Below are positions 56,455 through 63,780 of a stretch of 64,000 nucleotides of DNA, piece by piece. Within the stretch, counting starts at the first letter, position 1. The number at the start of each line of letters is the position of its first letter. The stretch lies in contig NZ_CP030280.1 in assembly GCF_003287895.1 (NCBI RefSeq), forward strand, positions 627,501 through 691,500, given 5' to 3'. The notes below the pieces were generated by a model that was not told the origin of the DNA, did no database searches, and saw nothing but the letters and a program-made list of their open reading frames with translations. This DNA is from Blautia argi. Lineage in GTDB: Bacteria; Bacillota; Clostridia; Lachnospirales; Lachnospiraceae. Both the position numbers and the translations under genes were made by a program.

Positions 56455-56504
56455 AAAAAATCCGAAAAGAATTCACAAAAGGAGAGTTCTTTTCGGATTT
56501 TTTT
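56455..56504. terminator. Bidirectional terminator between GH13 and the LacI-kinase gene
   Basis: AAAAAATCCGAAAAGAA (56455-56471) pairs with TTCTTTTCGGATTTTTT (56487-56503). Long A and T runs flank it on the two sides. It abuts the stop codon of the minus-strand gene. Confidence 0.9.
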
Positions 56505-58404
56505 ACTTAAGCAGTTCCGGTTCAAGATTTTTTATATGAGTTTCCAGGGTGTTGCGGTCAACCAGGGCAGGAACAACCCCTTGTCTGGAAACACAGAAAC
56601 CTGCGGCATATGTGGCAATACGAATGGATTTTTCCAGAGAATAACCTTCAATTAGAAAAGAAGCCAGCGCAGAAATAAAAGCATCGGCGCCGCCGGTAGT
56701 ATCAATGGAAACAAAGTCAGCAGAGGGAAAATATTTTGCCTTTTCTGCAGTTTTCAGATAGCAGCCTTCATGTCCAAGGGTAATAATAACAATTTTTACC
56801 CCTTTTTGAAAAAAGTATTCAGCTTGCCCTTCTATGGTGTTGTACTGAGGACACAGGGCAGCGGCTTCTTTGCGGTTAGGTATAAAAATATCTGTGTTTT
56901 TTAAAAGCTGATCAGGTATTGTTTTCAGAGCAGCAGGTTTTACAATATTTTGCGCTCCGTATTTCCGGGCAATTTTAGCAGCTTCCAGGACAGTTTCAAG
57001 AGGAATTTCCGTAGAAAGCAGACAAAAGCCGGTATTTTCAAAAAGATGCTGCCTCTTTTGAATATCTTCCGGATTTAAATTTCCGTTTGCACCGGACATG
57101 ATGGTAATAGTTCCCTCACCATTTCGCTCAATATAGATATAAGCTTTGCCGGTCTGTGTTTTCATGTCCCTATGAACGCCCTGAGTAGCCACCTGTTCTT
57201 TTTCTAAAATATCAAATATAAAGTTGGAATCAGAATCATTGCCGATTTCTCCTATCAGAGAAACCTCTCGCCCCAGCTTCGCAGCTCCAACAGCCTGGTT
57301 GGCACCTTTTCCTCCAAGCGTGGTGGTAGAACTCAGTATCGTGGTGGTTTTCCCTGCCTGGGGTAGCCAGTCTACATTAAACGTGATATCCATATTGATA
57401 CTTCCCACTACCACAATTTTTTTTGAACGAAAGAAAGAAGGAATATCCAAACTGTCTTCATTGTCAAAACAATAGGGAGAAGTAAAGGTATATTCGGATT
57501 TTTCAGCCTCTTTTTTTTCACATTTTTGGATTAAGTTTTTGCATACATAGTACCCAAATTCGCGGTAAGGAATTTTGATACTGGAAATGTGAGGGAATGA
57601 AACTGTTTCTCTCACATCATCTTTTAGACTTACTATGGACAAGTCCGAAGGCACATAATAGTGCATTTTATTCATTTGTTCGTATAGAGTCAAAGAAGAA
57701 GCAAAATGTGAACTGGCAATTCCTGAAAATCCATAATTCAGTATTCGGGAACAACAGGCCGGGTCTGAGATATAGAGCTTCATATTATCATGGTAAGGAA
57801 TTTGATAATCGAAAAGACATTCCTTAAATCCTTCAAATACCATATCGGAACGTCTGCTTTTTTCCTTCAAAAGGCAGGCAATTTTGCTGTGTTTATATTC
57901 TAATAGCTTTTGGGTGAGAATATATCCCATGGTTTTAAAGTCTATATTATAAGCAGATAGAGTATAAGGTGCATTTATATAACAGACAGAAATATTCTGT
58001 TCTGTAAAATAATGTTCGTATTGAAGGCTGTTTTTATCTGCCGGTTCCCAGAGCACTCCATCTACGTTATTTTTGCACAGAGAGGTAATATGCTTTAATT
58101 CAATGTTTGTATCATTTTGGCTGTCAAGAAGCAAGATGTTATACCCCTGCTCTTGTGCTGCCTGGAGAATACCATTCAGCAGTAGATTCGTTTGTGAGGT
58201 TGTGCGTAACAGAACCCCCAGCAGGAATCGTTTGGCATTGGATATATTTTTTACCGTGGCATAAGGTGTATAGTTATATTCTTTTACAATTTTCAGTACC
58301 CGGTTGCACGTTTCAGGATTGATATTTTGCGCCTTGTTGTTGATGACTTTAGAAACTGTCGAAATAGAAACACCAGCCAGGTTAGCAATTTCTTTAATGG
58401 TCAT
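56503..58404 (-). CDS. LacI-type repressor fused to a ribokinase-type (PfkB) domain
   Basis: A 633-residue two-part protein. Residues 1-50 are a LacI helix-turn-helix and hinge (IKEIANLAGVSISTVSKVIN). Residues about 57-315 are a periplasmic-binding-protein-like ligand domain. Residues 328-627 are a full ribokinase fold: KKIVVVGSINMDITF, GGKGANQAVGAAKLG (364-378) and the NxxE motif (Asn510, Glu513). The catalytic loop reads DTTGGADAF (568-576): the base Asp574 is kept but the usual GAGD/AAGD is GGAD. CGAGG precedes the ATG. It is divergent from a riboside-uptake operon that has its own ribokinase. It is probably a repressor whose kinase domain senses or modifies the sugar. Confidence 0.93.
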   Translation of the reverse strand: MTIKEIANLAGVSISTVSKVINNKAQNINPETCNRVLKIVKEYNYTPYATVKNISNAKRFLLGVLLRTTSQTNLLLNGILQAAQEQGYNILLLDSQNDTNIELKHITSLCKNNVDGVLWEPADKNSLQYEHYFTEQNISVCYINAPYTLSAYNIDFKTMGYILTQKLLEYKHSKIACLLKEKSRRSDMVFEGFKECLFDYQIPYHDNMKLYISDPACCSRILNYGFSGIASSHFASSLTLYEQMNKMHYYVPSDLSIVSLKDDVRETVSFPHISSIKIPYREFGYYVCKNLIQKCEKKEAEKSEYTFTSPYCFDNEDSLDIPSFFRSKKIVVVGSINMDITFNVDWLPQAGKTTTILSSTTTLGGKGANQAVGAAKLGREVSLIGEIGNDSDSNFIFDILEKEQVATQGVHRDMKTQTGKAYIYIERNGEGTITIMSGANGNLNPEDIQKRQHLFENTGFCLLSTEIPLETVLEAAKIARKYGAQNIVKPAALKTIPDQLLKNTDIFIPNRKEAAALCPQYNTIEGQAEYFFQKGVKIVIITLGHEGCYLKTAEKAKYFPSADFVSIDTTGGADAFISALASFLIEGYSLEKSIRIATYAAGFCVSRQGVVPALVDRNTLETHIKNLEPELLK

Positions 58405-58433: not shown

Positions 58434-58462
58434 ATTATGAAGGATAAGGAAAAATTTGTCAA
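58434..58462 (-). promoter_or_regulatory. Promoter of the LacI-kinase gene
   Basis: On the minus strand TTGACA (58462-58457) and CATAAT (58439-58434) with a 17-nt spacer. The start codon follows 29 nt further on. Confidence 0.8.
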
Positions 58463-58544: not shown

Positions 58545-58573
58545 TTGACAGGGAAATGGAATATGAGTATTCT
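58545..58573 (+). promoter_or_regulatory. Promoter of the nucleoside-hydrolase operon
   Basis: TTGACA (58545-58550) and TATTCT (58568-58573) with a 17-nt spacer. The leader to the start codon at 58649 is about 70 nt and contains the palindrome at 58593-58612. Confidence 0.8.
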
Positions 58574-58592: not shown

Positions 58593-58612
58593 TTAGGAAA
58601 ATGATTTCCTAA
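58593..58612. promoter_or_regulatory. Candidate operator of the LacI-kinase protein
   Basis: TTAGGAAAATGATTTCCTAA is a palindrome with 8-bp arms and a 4-nt centre, just after the predicted transcription start. An extra half site TAGGAAAA lies at 58581-58588. The centre lacks the CG pair common in LacI-family operators, so the assignment is tentative. Confidence 0.55.
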
Positions 58613-58648: not shown

Positions 58649-59626
58649 ATGAAAGAAGAAATACAAAGGAGTTGGGAAGAATTTACCAGTGCAAGAGCAA
58701 AGGAGAAAAGTAAGATTGATAACGCAAAACTTATTATGAAGTTAGAAAAGCCAAAAGGAAAGGTAGATGTAGTAATTGATACAGATACATACAATGAAAT
58801 TGATGATCAGTTTGCAGTGGCGTATTTAATAAAATCAGATGACAAGCTTAATCTAAAAGCAATATATGCAGCTCCATTTCACAATGAGAAATCCACCGGA
58901 CCGGCAGATGGTATGGAGAAAAGCTATCAGGAAATTATGAACATTCTTACATTGCTGGAGAGAGAAGACTTAAAAGCCAATGTATATAAGGGTTCAACTG
59001 CATATATGCCATCTGAAACAGAACCAGTAATATCTGAAGCAGCCAAAGACTTAGCGGAAAGAGCTATGCGGTATACAGAGGAGGATCCGTTATATGTGAT
59101 TGCGATAGGCGCTATTACGAATGTGTCTTCTGCACTTTTATTGAATCCGGAAATAAAAAATAGAATGGTATTAATCTGGTTAGGCGGAAATGCTATTCAC
59201 TGGCCTCATAATAGAGAGTTTAATCTGTTTCAAGATGTGGCAGGAGCCAGAATTGTATTTGGGTGTGGGGTTCCATTGGTTCAGCTGCCCTGTATGGGAG
59301 TTGTATCTGCCTTTACTACAAGCGGTCCGGAACTGGAGTATCACCTCAGAGGGAAAAACAAGCTTTGTGATTACTTGGTAGATGTTACGACAAAAGAGGC
59401 ACTGGAATGTTATGGAGGCTCTACGTGGACAAGGCCGATTTGGGACGTGACAGCAGTAGCATGGCTGCTTGATGGGGATTTTGAGGAGGATTGTCTGATA
59501 CATAGCCCGATTCCGGAATATGATGACAGATATGCCTTTGATAACAATCGCCATTTTATAAAATATGTGTACCATATTAAGCGAGATAATCTTTTTGCGG
59601 ATTTGTTTGAAAAACTTGCAAAATAA
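58649..59626 (+). CDS. Nucleoside hydrolase family protein, atypical active site
   Basis: A 325-residue protein of the inosine-uridine nucleoside hydrolase family. The calcium/ribose motif is DTDTYNEIDDQFA (Asp44, 46, 52, 53), two residues longer than the classical DxDPGxDD loop. FNLFQDVAGARIVF (Asn193, Asp197) matches the ribose-binding E-F-N...D-A motif. The segment that normally reads H-D reads RPIWDVTAVAW, so the leaving-group His is Trp266 while Asp267 is kept. A 40-residue N-terminal extension is present. It is first in an operon with a CUT1 importer and a ribokinase. The fold is clear; the exact riboside substrate is open. Confidence 0.88.
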   Translation: MKEEIQRSWEEFTSARAKEKSKIDNAKLIMKLEKPKGKVDVVIDTDTYNEIDDQFAVAYLIKSDDKLNLKAIYAAPFHNEKSTGPADGMEKSYQEIMNILTLLEREDLKANVYKGSTAYMPSETEPVISEAAKDLAERAMRYTEEDPLYVIAIGAITNVSSALLLNPEIKNRMVLIWLGGNAIHWPHNREFNLFQDVAGARIVFGCGVPLVQLPCMGVVSAFTTSGPELEYHLRGKNKLCDYLVDVTTKEALECYGGSTWTRPIWDVTAVAWLLDGDFEEDCLIHSPIPEYDDRYAFDNNRHFIKYVYHIKRDNLFADLFEKLAK

Positions 59627-59682: not shown

Positions 59683-61014
59683 ATGAGAGCAAGAAAAATA
59701 TTGACATTAACAACAGTAAGTACAATGATTGCAGCATCATTAAGTTTTACAGGGTGTGGAAACGCGGAAAGCAGCGACGGCAAAGCGACATCTAAGGGGG
59801 ATTCAGACAGCGTGACTTTAAAGTGGGTTTCTCAGGGACCTGGCGAGGACTCCTGGGAAGGTCTTACAAAGCCCATATTGGAAGAATACGAAAAGGAAAC
59901 AGGTGTGCATATTGATGCGGAATTCTATTCTTTCAATGATTTGTTTGAGGTTATAGAAACAAAAGCCGCAGCAGGAAATGCAGACTTTGATGTGATGAGT
60001 GTTGACGTTACCTATATTGCCAAATATGGCACCAGTGGATATCTGGAACCATTGGATAAGTATTTTACTGATGAAGACAAAGCAAAATGGGATTCTGCTT
60101 CTTATCAGGCCGGAGTTTGGGAAGATACGATGTATGCGGCGCCAGAAAATACTTCTACACAGGTACTATATTATAATAAAACATTGCTTGATGAGGCGGG
60201 CATTGTAATTCCTGAAAACGATGAGAATCATCGACTTACATATGATCAGATAGCAGATTTAGCAAAACAGGCATTGGAAAAACTGGATCCAGATGGAACA
60301 GAGGGATTGATTGGCTTCGATTTCCAACAGGTAAGTCGTGTATATCAGATGAATATGCTTGCCAATGCTATGGGAGGTAAAAATATCAGTGATGATGGAT
60401 ACTCATTAGATGGCGTTGTCAATACAAAACCATGGATTGATGCCATGACCTGGTATCAGGACTTAGTAAATGCGGGTATTGCTTCCAAGGGGTATGATGC
60501 AGATCAGCTGGGCGAACAATTCTATGCAGGTAAGATGTTATTTATGGTTGGCGGAACCTGGACGCCATCAGGTATGAAGGTTGATGATGAAATTGAATGT
60601 ACATATGCACCATGCTTTGAAGGATTTGAAGACAAGGCGGCAACATCTACAGGAAGTTGGTATTTTGGTATTAATTCTAATTCGAAAAATAAAGATGCGG
60701 CGGCAGACTTTATTAAATGGTTTACCTTGGAAAAAGGAAATGATATGTGGTTAGAGGTAAACGGAGATGTACCTAGCCGTTTGGATAAGCAGGAAGAGAT
60801 AAAGAACGATCCAGATGCTTCTAAGGATATGAAAATAGCGGCATATGAAGCAGCAAACACTGCTGTACCACGTGCGGTAACGCCTGTTTTTGGTGAGTAC
60901 TCTACCGTATTAGATCAGGCCTGGGAAGATGTTCGGAACGGTGCAGATGTAGAGGAAACCTTGGAGAATGCAATAGAACAGTTTGAATCCGCTACAGCGG
61001 CATATAAAAAATAA
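59683..61014 (+). CDS. CUT1 ABC transporter binding lipoprotein
   Basis: A 443-residue family-1 binding protein with lipobox FTGC (Cys25). Recognisable pieces are LKWVSQGPGEDSWEG near the mature N terminus and AAADFIKWFT near the C-terminal half. ATG 59683 is preferred to 59647 because AAAAGGAG lies ten bases before it and it opens the signal peptide. It lies 56 nt after the nucleoside hydrolase. Nucleosides are usually imported by BmpA-type or CUT2 systems, so a CUT1 binding protein here is notable. The ligand may be a riboside or a larger ribose-containing sugar. Confidence 0.9.
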   Translation: MRARKILTLTTVSTMIAASLSFTGCGNAESSDGKATSKGDSDSVTLKWVSQGPGEDSWEGLTKPILEEYEKETGVHIDAEFYSFNDLFEVIETKAAAGNADFDVMSVDVTYIAKYGTSGYLEPLDKYFTDEDKAKWDSASYQAGVWEDTMYAAPENTSTQVLYYNKTLLDEAGIVIPENDENHRLTYDQIADLAKQALEKLDPDGTEGLIGFDFQQVSRVYQMNMLANAMGGKNISDDGYSLDGVVNTKPWIDAMTWYQDLVNAGIASKGYDADQLGEQFYAGKMLFMVGGTWTPSGMKVDDEIECTYAPCFEGFEDKAATSTGSWYFGINSNSKNKDAAADFIKWFTLEKGNDMWLEVNGDVPSRLDKQEEIKNDPDASKDMKIAAYEAANTAVPRAVTPVFGEYSTVLDQAWEDVRNGADVEETLENAIEQFESATAAYKK

Positions 61015-61121
61015 GGAATGATGTGAGATGGCGGTATATCCTGACCGGTATTCCGCCATTTCTTTGATGAAACAGATAAAATCTGACAGGTTGTTTTGAT
61101 TTGGAAAGACAGGAGGATACT

Positions 61122-61980
61122 ATGGGTGGTGTCTACATTAAAAATAAATGGCTTCCGTATCTTTTAATACTGCCAACAATTATTTTGATTTGCATATTTA
61201 AAATTTATCCTATTATTGACAGTGTTATACAGGGAGTTCTCTCTACAGAGGGGAGTTTTACACTGGAAAATTACAAATTATTATTTGCGGATAAAACATT
61301 TTGGAACTCTTTGTGGGTCACTTTGAAGTTTAATCTTATTATTATACCGCTGCAGATTATCATTGCTTTTATTATGGCCATGATTGTCAATGTCAAAGTT
61401 CGTGGCATTGAAATTTTCAGAACGGTTTTTTATTTGCCGTTTTGTATTTCATTAACCATTGCAACTGTTATCTGGCAGATGATGTTGAATGTGAATAACG
61501 GAGTAATCAATAGTGTGCTTGGGATTTTAGGTATTCGTCCCATCGGATTTCTTATTGATAAAAAATGGGCGCTCCTGTCGATTGTTTTAATTGCGTCATG
61601 GAGAGGCTGTGCATACTGGATGATGTTTATTTCTGGCAGGATTGAAGGGAATTGATACTGCAGTATATGAGTCAGCTAAAATTGACGGATCGGGTTTTTT
61701 CAGTACATTATTTAGAATTACAATTCCTCTTCTGAAAAATACATTACTTTTTGTGGTTATAGCGAATACTACTGCTAACTTTTTGCTTTTTGCGCCCATT
61801 CAAATTGCTACAGATGGCGGCCCTCAAGGCAGCACCAATGTGTTAATGTATGAGGCGTATAAGTCAGCGTTTAAATATTCAAACAGACCAAGACAGGCCT
61901 GTATTGTGACCATACTGCTGGTGATTGTTGTGCTGGTATGTTTTGTTCAAAATAAGTGTTTGAAAGAAAAGGAGGTATAA
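61122..61980 (+). CDS. CUT1 ABC transporter permease, frameshifted as assembled
   Basis: Reads as a 285-residue MalF/UgpA-type permease if one G of the GG at 61635-61636 is dropped (WMMFIS then AGLKGIDTAVYESAKIDG). It has six membrane segments and the EAA loop as ESAKIDGSGFFSTL. ATG 61122 follows AGGAGG; the frame is open from 61101 but without a site there. Its last codon lies 4 nt before the next permease. Confidence 0.88.
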
Positions 61981-61984
61981 GGGT

Positions 61985-62833
61985 ATGACACGGAAGCAAA
62001 AAAGAATTACAAAAAAAGTTGTCATATATATAGTGTTGGTAATTATGACGATTGCGTCCTTATTTCCTATTTTCTTTTGTTTATCAGCATCTTTAAGAAC
62101 ACAGGAAGACTTGTTTAGGAATATGTTTCCATTTACGATAAAGTCTTTGATTCCTACTGCGGTTACAGGGGAAAATTACAGCATACTTTTTACAAAGTAT
62201 GAGTTTTGGCGTCCGATTCTGAATACAATGATTGTTACAGTGGCTTCGATTATTCTGGGCTGTCTTATTAACTCAATGGCGGGATTTGCATTTACCTGTT
62301 TTGAATTCAAAGGAAAAAAACTTTTTTATCCACTTGTGTTAATATCGTTTATGGTTCCGTTTGAAGCAATTGCGATTCCGTTGTATAATGTTGCGGACAG
62401 TTTTGGAATGGTGGATACTTATGCGGGCATGATAATACCTGCGATTGCAGATGGATTGGTAACCTTTTTGTTTATTCAGTTTTTCAAAGATATTCCGCCG
62501 AGTTTGGTAGAGGCAGCACGGGTAGACGGAGCAAAGTGGCCGACGATATTTGCAAAAGTAATTATGCCCATTTCAATTCCGGTATTTGTGACAGCCGGAC
62601 TTATGATTTTTATGAATCAGTGGAATTCTTATATGTGGCCTCTTTTGGTAGCGCGTTCTAAGGAAATCAGGACAATTCAGATAGCAATCAGTCAGTTCAG
62701 CGGAGAGCGTTCTATTCAATGGACATATATCTATGCAGGGTCTATGATATCAGCCATTATTCCAATCTGTCTGTTCCTTCCATTTCAGAAATACTTTGTG
62801 GAAGGTATTACGGCAGGAAGCGTGAAAGGATAA
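61985..62833 (+). CDS. CUT1 ABC transporter permease (MalG type)
   Basis: A 282-residue permease with six membrane segments and the EAA loop EAARVDGAKWPTIFAKV. The C terminus EGITAGSVKG is typical. AAAGGAGG precedes the ATG. It pairs with the preceding permease and the binding protein at 59.7 kb. No ATPase is encoded in the operon. Confidence 0.93.
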   Translation: MTRKQKRITKKVVIYIVLVIMTIASLFPIFFCLSASLRTQEDLFRNMFPFTIKSLIPTAVTGENYSILFTKYEFWRPILNTMIVTVASIILGCLINSMAGFAFTCFEFKGKKLFYPLVLISFMVPFEAIAIPLYNVADSFGMVDTYAGMIIPAIADGLVTFLFIQFFKDIPPSLVEAARVDGAKWPTIFAKVIMPISIPVFVTAGLMIFMNQWNSYMWPLLVARSKEIRTIQIAISQFSGERSIQWTYIYAGSMISAIIPICLFLPFQKYFVEGITAGSVKG

Positions 62834-62847
62834 TAGGAGAGGCCGGT

Positions 62848-63780
62848 ATGAAAAAAATTTTAGTTATTGGAAGTTTAAATTTGGATATGACGGTTCAGGT
62901 GGATCATACACCTGCTGTAGGAGAAACGATTCTCAGCAATAAAATGGATATGAATGCAGGCGGCAAAGGAGCAAATCAGGCATGCGCTTTGGGAAAACTG
63001 GGAGCAGATGTTACAATGCTGGGCGCAGTTGGAAAAGATATGTATGCAGATATTCAACTTAACAGTCTGAAAGCAGCCGGTGTTCATACTGATAAGATAG
63101 TAATAAAAGAAAATACAAGTACAGGTATTGCGCTGATTGCGGTAAATGCAGAAGGAGATAATAGTATCATTGTTGTTTCGGGAGCAAATTCAGATTTATC
63201 TAAGCAAGATATCGATAATAATCTGGAGGCGATAAGGGATTGTGATATAGTGATTCTCCAATTAGAAGTGCCGTTGGAAACAGTATGTTATGCCGCAAAA
63301 ATTGCAAAAGAAATGGGGAAGATGGTGATTTTGGATCCGGCTCCTGTACCAAAAGAATTTCCGGAGGAGCTTTATCAATATTTAGATATTATAAAGCCAA
63401 ATGAAACAGAATTGGGAATGTTGACCGGAATAAAAGAACCGGAGAGTCATTTGAAAGAGGCGGTTGAGTGCTTGAGGGAGAAAGGTGTTCATAATATCAT
63501 AGTAACCTTAGGCGAAAAGGGGGTTTATGTAGACTGTAAAACAATGAAAGCAGAATGGATACCTGCAATAAAAGTACATGCTGTGGATACAACAGCTGCC
63601 GGAGATTCTTTTACAGCAGCATTAGCCATTATGCTTGCGGAAGGAAAAAGTCTGAGAGAAGCAGTTATATTTGCAAACTATGTTTCGTCTATTGTGGTGA
63701 CACGAAAAGGGGCACAGACTTCTATTCCTACCTTGGAAGAGGTGAGGTGTTATATCAAATTAAAGGAAACTGCACTATAG
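62848..63780 (+). CDS. rbsK: Ribokinase (PfkB family)
   Basis: A 310-residue kinase that converts D-ribose to ribose 5-phosphate. It has the N-terminal VIGSLNLDMTVQVDHTP, the first PfkB signature GGKGANQACALGKLG (about 37-51), the metal-linked NxxE in IKPNETEL, and the catalytic loop DTTAAGDSF with the base Asp. ATAGGAGAGG precedes ATG 62848, 14 nt after the permease. It is the last gene of the riboside operon and would use ribose released by the nucleoside hydrolase. It is clearly related to the kinase half of the fusion protein at 56.5 kb. Confidence 0.93.
   Translation: MKKILVIGSLNLDMTVQVDHTPAVGETILSNKMDMNAGGKGANQACALGKLGADVTMLGAVGKDMYADIQLNSLKAAGVHTDKIVIKENTSTGIALIAVNAEGDNSIIVVSGANSDLSKQDIDNNLEAIRDCDIVILQLEVPLETVCYAAKIAKEMGKMVILDPAPVPKEFPEELYQYLDIIKPNETELGMLTGIKEPESHLKEAVECLREKGVHNIIVTLGEKGVYVDCKTMKAEWIPAIKVHAVDTTAAGDSFTAALAIMLAEGKSLREAVIFANYVSSIVVTRKGAQTSIPTLEEVRCYIKLKETAL

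Follow-up and report, generated by a model that had tools for sequence, protein, structure and literature searches.

Can a ribokinase that has been joined to a repressor serve that repressor as its sugar sensor? The question is raised by a gene of Blautia argi (Lachnospiraceae) that lies in the 64,000-nucleotide stretch analysed here, hereafter the window (contig NZ_CP030280.1, positions 627,501 to 691,500; all coordinates below are those of the window). The gene (56503..58404, minus strand) encodes a LacI-type repressor continued by a ribokinase domain, and the genes on its divergent side encode a nucleoside-hydrolase-like protein, an ATP-binding cassette (ABC) sugar transporter and a separate ribokinase. 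The reading that we favour, with a probability of about 0.45, is that the product is a local LacI-type repressor of this divergent nucleoside or riboside operon and that its fused ribokinase domain would act as the inducer sensor. Taken on its own, the first part of this reading, that the fusion protein represses the adjoining operon, is very probable.

Architecture and distribution of the fusion

The gene is a single uninterrupted open reading frame (ORF) of 633 amino acids with an ATG start. Pfam models place a LacI helix-turn-helix (HTH) at residues 2-47 (PF00356, 59.9 bits, cut-off 27; 58264..58401, minus strand), a periplasmic-binding-protein-like domain at residues 58-305 (57490..58233, minus strand) and a PfkB/ribokinase domain at residues 328-611 (PF00294, 201 bits, cut-off 25.8; 56572..57423, minus strand). 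The middle domain is matched by Peripla_BP_1 (PF00532, residues 75-193, 41.5 bits, cut-off 22.2) and Peripla_BP_3 (PF13377, residues 165-305, 41.1 bits, cut-off 26.5), and it aligns with the ribose repressor RbsR (Protein Data Bank, PDB, 9ny7) and further LacI proteins. Both hallmarks of the LacI family, the HTH and the periplasmic-type effector domain, are therefore present according to Pfam, and a fold search matched the kinase part to PfkB/ribokinase structures (VIA-align rows spanning residues 325-632). This confirms the preliminary description of the locus, which had reported both domains in one unbroken frame.

That description had also considered a missed stop or a junction near residue 320, which independent homologues rule out: PF00356 and PF00294 occur together in 119 of the best 120 of 825 homologues (counted by eye), the exception, P0051, being without HTH. 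A second search, with a distant member as query, gave 95 of 102 matches with both domains (also by eye). Nor are the homologues always split into two genes: a separate pair was seen in a single genome, a more distant one (L094). The preliminary description knew of no characterised protein of this architecture, and the literature that we searched gave none either: among open-access full-text articles, a scope that leaves most subscription papers outside, no title or abstract start describes a LacI-ribokinase fusion. Both halves belong to known families, and sequence databases already contain their combination, variously annotated as 'LacI family regulator', 'PfkB family carbohydrate kinase' or 'ribokinase', which should serve as a warning for annotators.

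The fusion is present as a single copy in the window genome. With the window protein as query and a strict threshold, it was found in 8 of 150 genomes of the window's family, and with the distant query it was found in 31 of the 397 sampled from the same family, the window's own being included in both counts. In a phylum-wide sample 3 of 398 genomes matched, namely the window's own, one with a split pair and one with a standalone kinase, and the viral contigs scanned contained no relative. For the analysis of loci we took, out of 224 genome stretches that encode relatives, the best 80; these gave 78 loci whose titles are largely Lachnospiraceae; one of them (L070), where the match begins only at query residue 179, was dropped. 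A strain-specific feature was considered and rejected, as the record titles place related loci in other lineages: Enterococcus (L064) and, among metagenome-assembled genomes, Synergistaceae (L068, L072), Pleomorphochaeta (L077) and Family XIII (L078). From the 31 matching genomes, without G754, G609 and G639, we obtained a sample of 28 members free of the pattern bias described below; L085 is cut off by a contig end, and L096, the second copy in genome G149, was excluded. This second copy is in two pieces (198 and 438 amino acids) about 10 kb from the intact one (L089).

When 63 kinase domains were placed in a maximum-likelihood tree, all 35 from fusions fell on one side of a branch with a support of 100/99. 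The neighbour of this clade was a standalone ribokinase (L095) encoded beside an ADP-ribosylglycohydrolase-like gene. Once fused members of greater distance were included, a second tree gave weak support to a place of L095 beside the early fused members, which leaves the exact root of the fusion uncertain. A plausible precursor is seen at L094, where a canonical LacI gene (334 amino acids) is directly followed by a separate canonical ribokinase gene (301 amino acids). At another locus, L092, the divergent neighbour of the fusion is itself a separate canonical LacI gene (332 amino acids), so that this nucleoside-hydrolase/ribokinase locus has two LacI regulators.

The kinase domain and its active site

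All the ribose-binding and catalytic residues that we take to be those of Escherichia coli ribokinase (N14, D16, GGK, N46, E143 and D255) have their counterparts in the window protein. The ribose- and ATP-contact positions assigned in the same way are nearly invariant among the closer homologues, and the catalytic Asp574 is present in the 197 closer-homologue domains (197/197) that reach that position. Asp574 closes a TGGAD motif (residues 570-574; 56683..56697, minus strand) in which the preceding Gly is replaced by Ala573. In ribokinases, this Gly is part of the anion hole and the Asp is the catalytic base. Among the 28 members sampled without pattern bias, the Gly was replaced by Ala, Ser or Cys in 26 and kept in two, and it was present in all 49 standalone kinases of the loci (49/49). 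We had taken TGGAD for an invariant family signature on the basis of 22 sequences, a proposal refuted by the TGAAD, TGACD, TGASD and TGAGD variants that unbiased sampling disclosed; the counts of the genome scan at this motif are biased because TGGADAFI was itself the search pattern. The loss of the Gly is what survives of the signature. The fused domain scored 269.4 bits with the ribokinase equivalog model TIGR02152, under its cut-off of 299.65. The fused kinase of the window probably retains the ability to phosphorylate ribose, if perhaps at a low rate.

Conservation is also greater in the kinase than in the LacI ligand domain. Across 79 non-redundant members, in which the LacI ligand domain was less conserved than either the HTH or the kinase, mean pair identity was 0.53 for the kinase and 0.40 for the ligand domain, the former being higher in 99.4% of 3081 pairs.

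A distant set of 98 members disclosed fusions that have lost the catalytic base: 75 still have Asp574, and the other 23 have Asn (21), Thr (one) or Gln (one) in its place. We set aside P0211, which carries the Gln and whose C-terminus looks out of frame, and L093, which repeats P0121. The remaining 21 (17 after thinning), with Asn or, in one, Thr, form one clade with a support of 100/99. Within it, kinase identity (0.50) exceeded that of the LacI ligand domain (0.32) in 136 of 136 pairs, and D339, G365, K366, E466 and E513 were invariant in the 17 thinned members. Two of the fusions examined at their loci, L093 and L109, are of this kind. In this clade catalysis thus seems dispensable and the domain does not, and where a domain has lost its catalytic base but preserved much of its active site, the easiest reading is still a binding sensor.

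The LacI ligand domain

We compared the LacI pocket with that of the ribose repressor 9ny7 and of eleven other LacI proteins. At the position of the sugar-binding Asp of the effector pocket, presumably D274 of LacI and D275 of PurR, the window protein has Lys261 (57622-57624, minus strand). Lys or Arg occupied this position in 67 of 86 aligned members and in 20 of the 28 sampled without pattern bias, and Asp was found in one of the 86. In the distant set the position was more varied, with Lys or Arg in 34 of 98, Glu in 16 and Gly in 15. Furthermore, the 'D' of the 'ND' pair was His in 63 of 86 members, the NPFF/Y loop was shortened, and the hinge often read K-N-I/L-S where ordinary LacI members have A-R-x-L. 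With the pocket Asp, 'ND' and NPFF/Y positions altered, the earlier suggestion of two sugar sensors, one of them an intact LacI ligand domain, finds no support in that form.

Predicted operator and presumed target operon

A palindromic motif recurs upstream of the members, and with the palindromes of several members as a start we built a 22-bp matrix with the consensus TTTAnGAAAATATTTTCnTAAA. In a leave-one-out analysis, 60 of 78 upstream regions (77 loci plus the window) scored above the 99th percentile of dinucleotide shuffles, as did 10 of 16 regions that had not contributed to the matrix. In the window, the predicted operator is TTAGGAAAATGATTTCCTAA (58593..58612). The pattern TTARGAAANNNNTTTCYTAA has one perfect match in the 3.3 Mb genome, which is this site, and eight further places match it with two mismatches (36 for the reversed control pattern). 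Since the perfect match is unique and the others are few, a local regulator of one operon is the simplest reading. The operator begins 20 bases downstream of a promoter-like TTGACA-17-TATTCT of the divergent operon (58545..58573, plus strand) and lies about 130 bp from a TTGACA-17-CATAAT that may serve the fusion gene (58434..58462, minus strand), both from a consensus scan that performed at chance level. At L079 and L080, the motif stands directly before the fusion gene, which is followed by further genes on the same strand.

The predicted palindrome is even and has TA or TG/CA at its centre, not CG. In PMC4052901, a central CG pair is given for 1173 of 1251 LacI regulators with even palindromes, the centre being different in 49 and degenerate in 29.

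The neighbourhoods have ribosides as their common theme. Among 78 fusions (77 loci plus the window), the adjacent gene was divergent in 59, co-directional in 14 and missing from the stretch in five, and a PfkB kinase, a nucleoside hydrolase or an ADP-ribosylglycohydrolase was encoded in the stretch in 63. Of the 51 loci that extend 6 kb or more to either side, 39 encode a separate PfkB kinase, 30 a nucleoside hydrolase, 13 an ADP-ribosylglycohydrolase and six a PnrA-type nucleoside-binding protein; the corresponding numbers for the 28 unbiased members were 18, 19, 2 and 6. Neighbour calls were checked with Pfam for representatives, and some of the PfkB neighbours may be other sugar kinases because they were called by similarity to the ribokinase of the window (and, in the 28-member sample, also to that of L095).

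How the fusion could work

We propose the following mechanism. When ribose is absent, the LacI part would sit on TTAGGAAAATGATTTCCTAA, just downstream of the promoter of the operon, which would be blocked. Nucleosides entering the cell would be hydrolysed, and the ribose, together with ATP and Mg, would bind to the kinase domain. Lid closure is typical of ribokinases; in the fusion it could be relayed through the linker at residues 306-327 to the LacI core, whereupon the DNA would be released. The pocket of the LacI domain would no longer be an ordinary sugar site, and phosphorylation of ribose by the kinase, perhaps slow, would reset the switch.

Several observations weigh against this proposal. 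The kinase of the window keeps the catalytic Asp and the checked ribose and ATP positions, as in a working enzyme, and the branch without this Asp is a different subfamily from the window protein. Moreover, in that branch Asn337 is retained in 6 of 21 members and Asn369 in 12 of 21, so that its ribose site is partly eroded and its ligand may differ; the neighbours of L093 (an M24 peptidase, a Peripla_BP_4 ABC system and a gene of the DHDPS family) likewise suggest that this ligand may not be ribose. The greater conservation of the kinase may be general and extend to ordinary RbsR/RbsK pairs. Concerning the LacI pocket, the Asp is present in 9 of the 12 comparators and absent from CcpA (PDB 2o20), L007 and the short L008, and its loss alone therefore proves little; W119, H172 and G192 stay conserved, so that the LacI domain may still bind something. 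As to the operator, 18 of the 78 upstream regions and 6 of the 16 outside the training set fell under the threshold, and the loci are not independent because several are close relatives. The promoter scan found 7 sites when 6.6 were expected by chance, so its sites are not evidence of function. Lastly, in 15 of 78 fusions, some on short contigs and others not, none of the three riboside-related genes was nearby.

The retained active site is also what the best surviving alternative would call for. In this rather unlikely explanation, the protein is a trigger enzyme with two jobs, an active ribokinase that carries flux and a repressor whose sensor is its own LacI domain, and the fusion would only ensure that both are co-produced or that the product is made locally. 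However, a separate canonical ribokinase is already encoded in the same operon, and a PfkB kinase lies near 18 of the 28 unbiased members. Both the loss of the Gly before the catalytic Asp in 26 of 28 and that of the sugar-contact Asp of the LacI pocket speak against such a division of labour, and a repressor produced at regulator levels would presumably make a poor enzyme for flux. The related proposal of the preliminary description, that repression is coupled to phosphorylation flux, survives in the sense that kinase chemistry is plausibly tied to repression; flux as the main idea is weakened by the canonical ribokinase in the operon, the PfkB kinases near the other members and the branch without catalytic Asp. 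Sensing by the kinase domain would fit these findings better than flux coupling.

The altered LacI pocket could be explained in another manner, if the kinase made ribose 5-phosphate or a related phospho-sugar and the pocket, retooled with Lys or Arg, bound this product as its effector. The basic residue at the usual Asp position (67 of 86 members and 20 of 28 unbiased ones), the retention of Arg185 in 58 of 79 and the presence of the catalytic Asp in most members seen would fit such a product-sensing switch. We nevertheless consider it distinctly improbable, because the branch without Asp574 presumably makes no product and yet retains the architecture, because many members lack the basic residue (it occurs in 34 of the 98 distant ones) and because the structure model is of low confidence just past residue 261. 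Still less credit can be given to a kinase domain that serves passively, for oligomerisation or stability, in a regulator that answers to something else. Ribokinases are dimers, and a domain derived from one would help a LacI-type dimer, but a scaffold needs no invariant active site, and none of the five residues named above varies even among the 17 thinned members without Asp574. That two genes were united by a missed stop, an assembly error or a chimera can practically be dismissed, as the architecture recurs in both homologue searches, with full-length matches in other genomes, and the fused kinases form one clade.

A wider proposal, which we advance tentatively, extends kinase-based sensing to a hitherto undescribed class of one-component sugar sensors: a ribokinase would have been joined once to a LacI repressor and have taken over sensing, the LacI pocket being retired or retooled, the anion hole drifting and, in one branch, the catalytic base being lost, which would leave a pseudokinase sensor on a LacI scaffold.

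Comparison with known systems

The fusion shares with LacI/RbsR-type repressors (RbsR, PDB 9ny7; CcpA, PDB 2o20) the N-terminal LacI HTH, the periplasmic-type core, a palindromic predicted operator and a position beside one divergent sugar operon. It differs from them in the additional C-terminal ribokinase, in the changed sugar-contact Asp, ND and NPFF/Y positions and in the centre of its predicted operator, which PMC4052901 gives as CG for most regulators with even palindromes. Compared with RbsK of the PfkB family (E. coli, PDB 1rkd and 1rk2), it is joined to a repressor, has mostly Ala, Ser or Cys at the equivalent of Gly254 and remains below the NCBIfam ribokinase cut-off (269 versus 299.65 bits). 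In proteins that combine an HTH with PfkB (PRK09954), a DNA-binding domain likewise precedes a PfkB kinase. The PRK09954 'sugar kinase' model, which we take to represent the E. coli YeiI type, matched residues 329-604 with 50.5 bits, far under its cut-off of 561, and the YeiI type has only a short HTH and no LacI-type ligand domain.

The ROK family (NagC, Mlc and XylR) has a kinase fold of the hexokinase/actin type, unrelated to that of ribokinase, as well as a different HTH and no periplasmic-type domain between the two. The kinase part of the fusion matches PfkB/ribokinase, not ROK, in both Pfam and fold. ROK proteins are described as acting either as sugar kinases or as regulators, and the use of a sugar-kinase fold as the sensor of a DNA-binding repressor would be common to both systems.

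In PMC4052901, the domain structure of the LacI family is called rigid, a description that a family of fusions in 31 of 397 sampled genomes breaks. One lineage shows fusions with the catalytic Asp, a branch of fusions without it and, further off, separate LacI and ribokinase genes; with these states side by side and a predicted operator to assay, the way in which an enzyme becomes a sensor is open to experiment. If the proposed mechanism is correct, sensing of a sugar, probably ribose, by a ribokinase would be an uncharacterised way of sensing food.

Other features of the locus

The first gene of the presumed target operon is the nucleoside-hydrolase-like gene (58649..59626, plus strand; PF01156, 66 bits), which adjoins the fusion in a subset of relatives. 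Its product is atypical, with at most 43 bits to the NCBIfam models (cut-offs 382-459) and DTDTYNEIDD as its Asp motif. On the same strand follow a Pfam-identified solute-binding protein of the ABC transporter (SBP_bac_1, 59683..61014), permease 1 (61101..61980), permease 2 (61985..62833), an ORF that resembles the permeases of relatives' operons, and the canonical ribokinase (62845..63780; TIGR02152, 355.3 bits, cut-off 299.65). Permease 1 consists of two overlapping frames (184 and 112 amino acids) in the window and is a single gene of 287-305 amino acids in the four relatives compared, the split being a frameshift or a sequencing error.

On its other side, the fusion gene is separated from a convergent gene of the alpha-amylase family by an inverted repeat of 15 bp (56457-56501; AAAATCCGAAAAGAA / TTCTTTTCGGATTTT, found by eye), which looks like a shared two-way terminator and is absent from the list of the terminator scan because its loop has 15 bases. 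Finally, ADP-ribosylglycohydrolase-like genes were found with phmmer at 22 of the 78 fusion loci (L009 being checked with Pfam), often together with a PfkB kinase and an ABC system, and such loci perhaps represent an unstudied type of riboside-catabolic operon.
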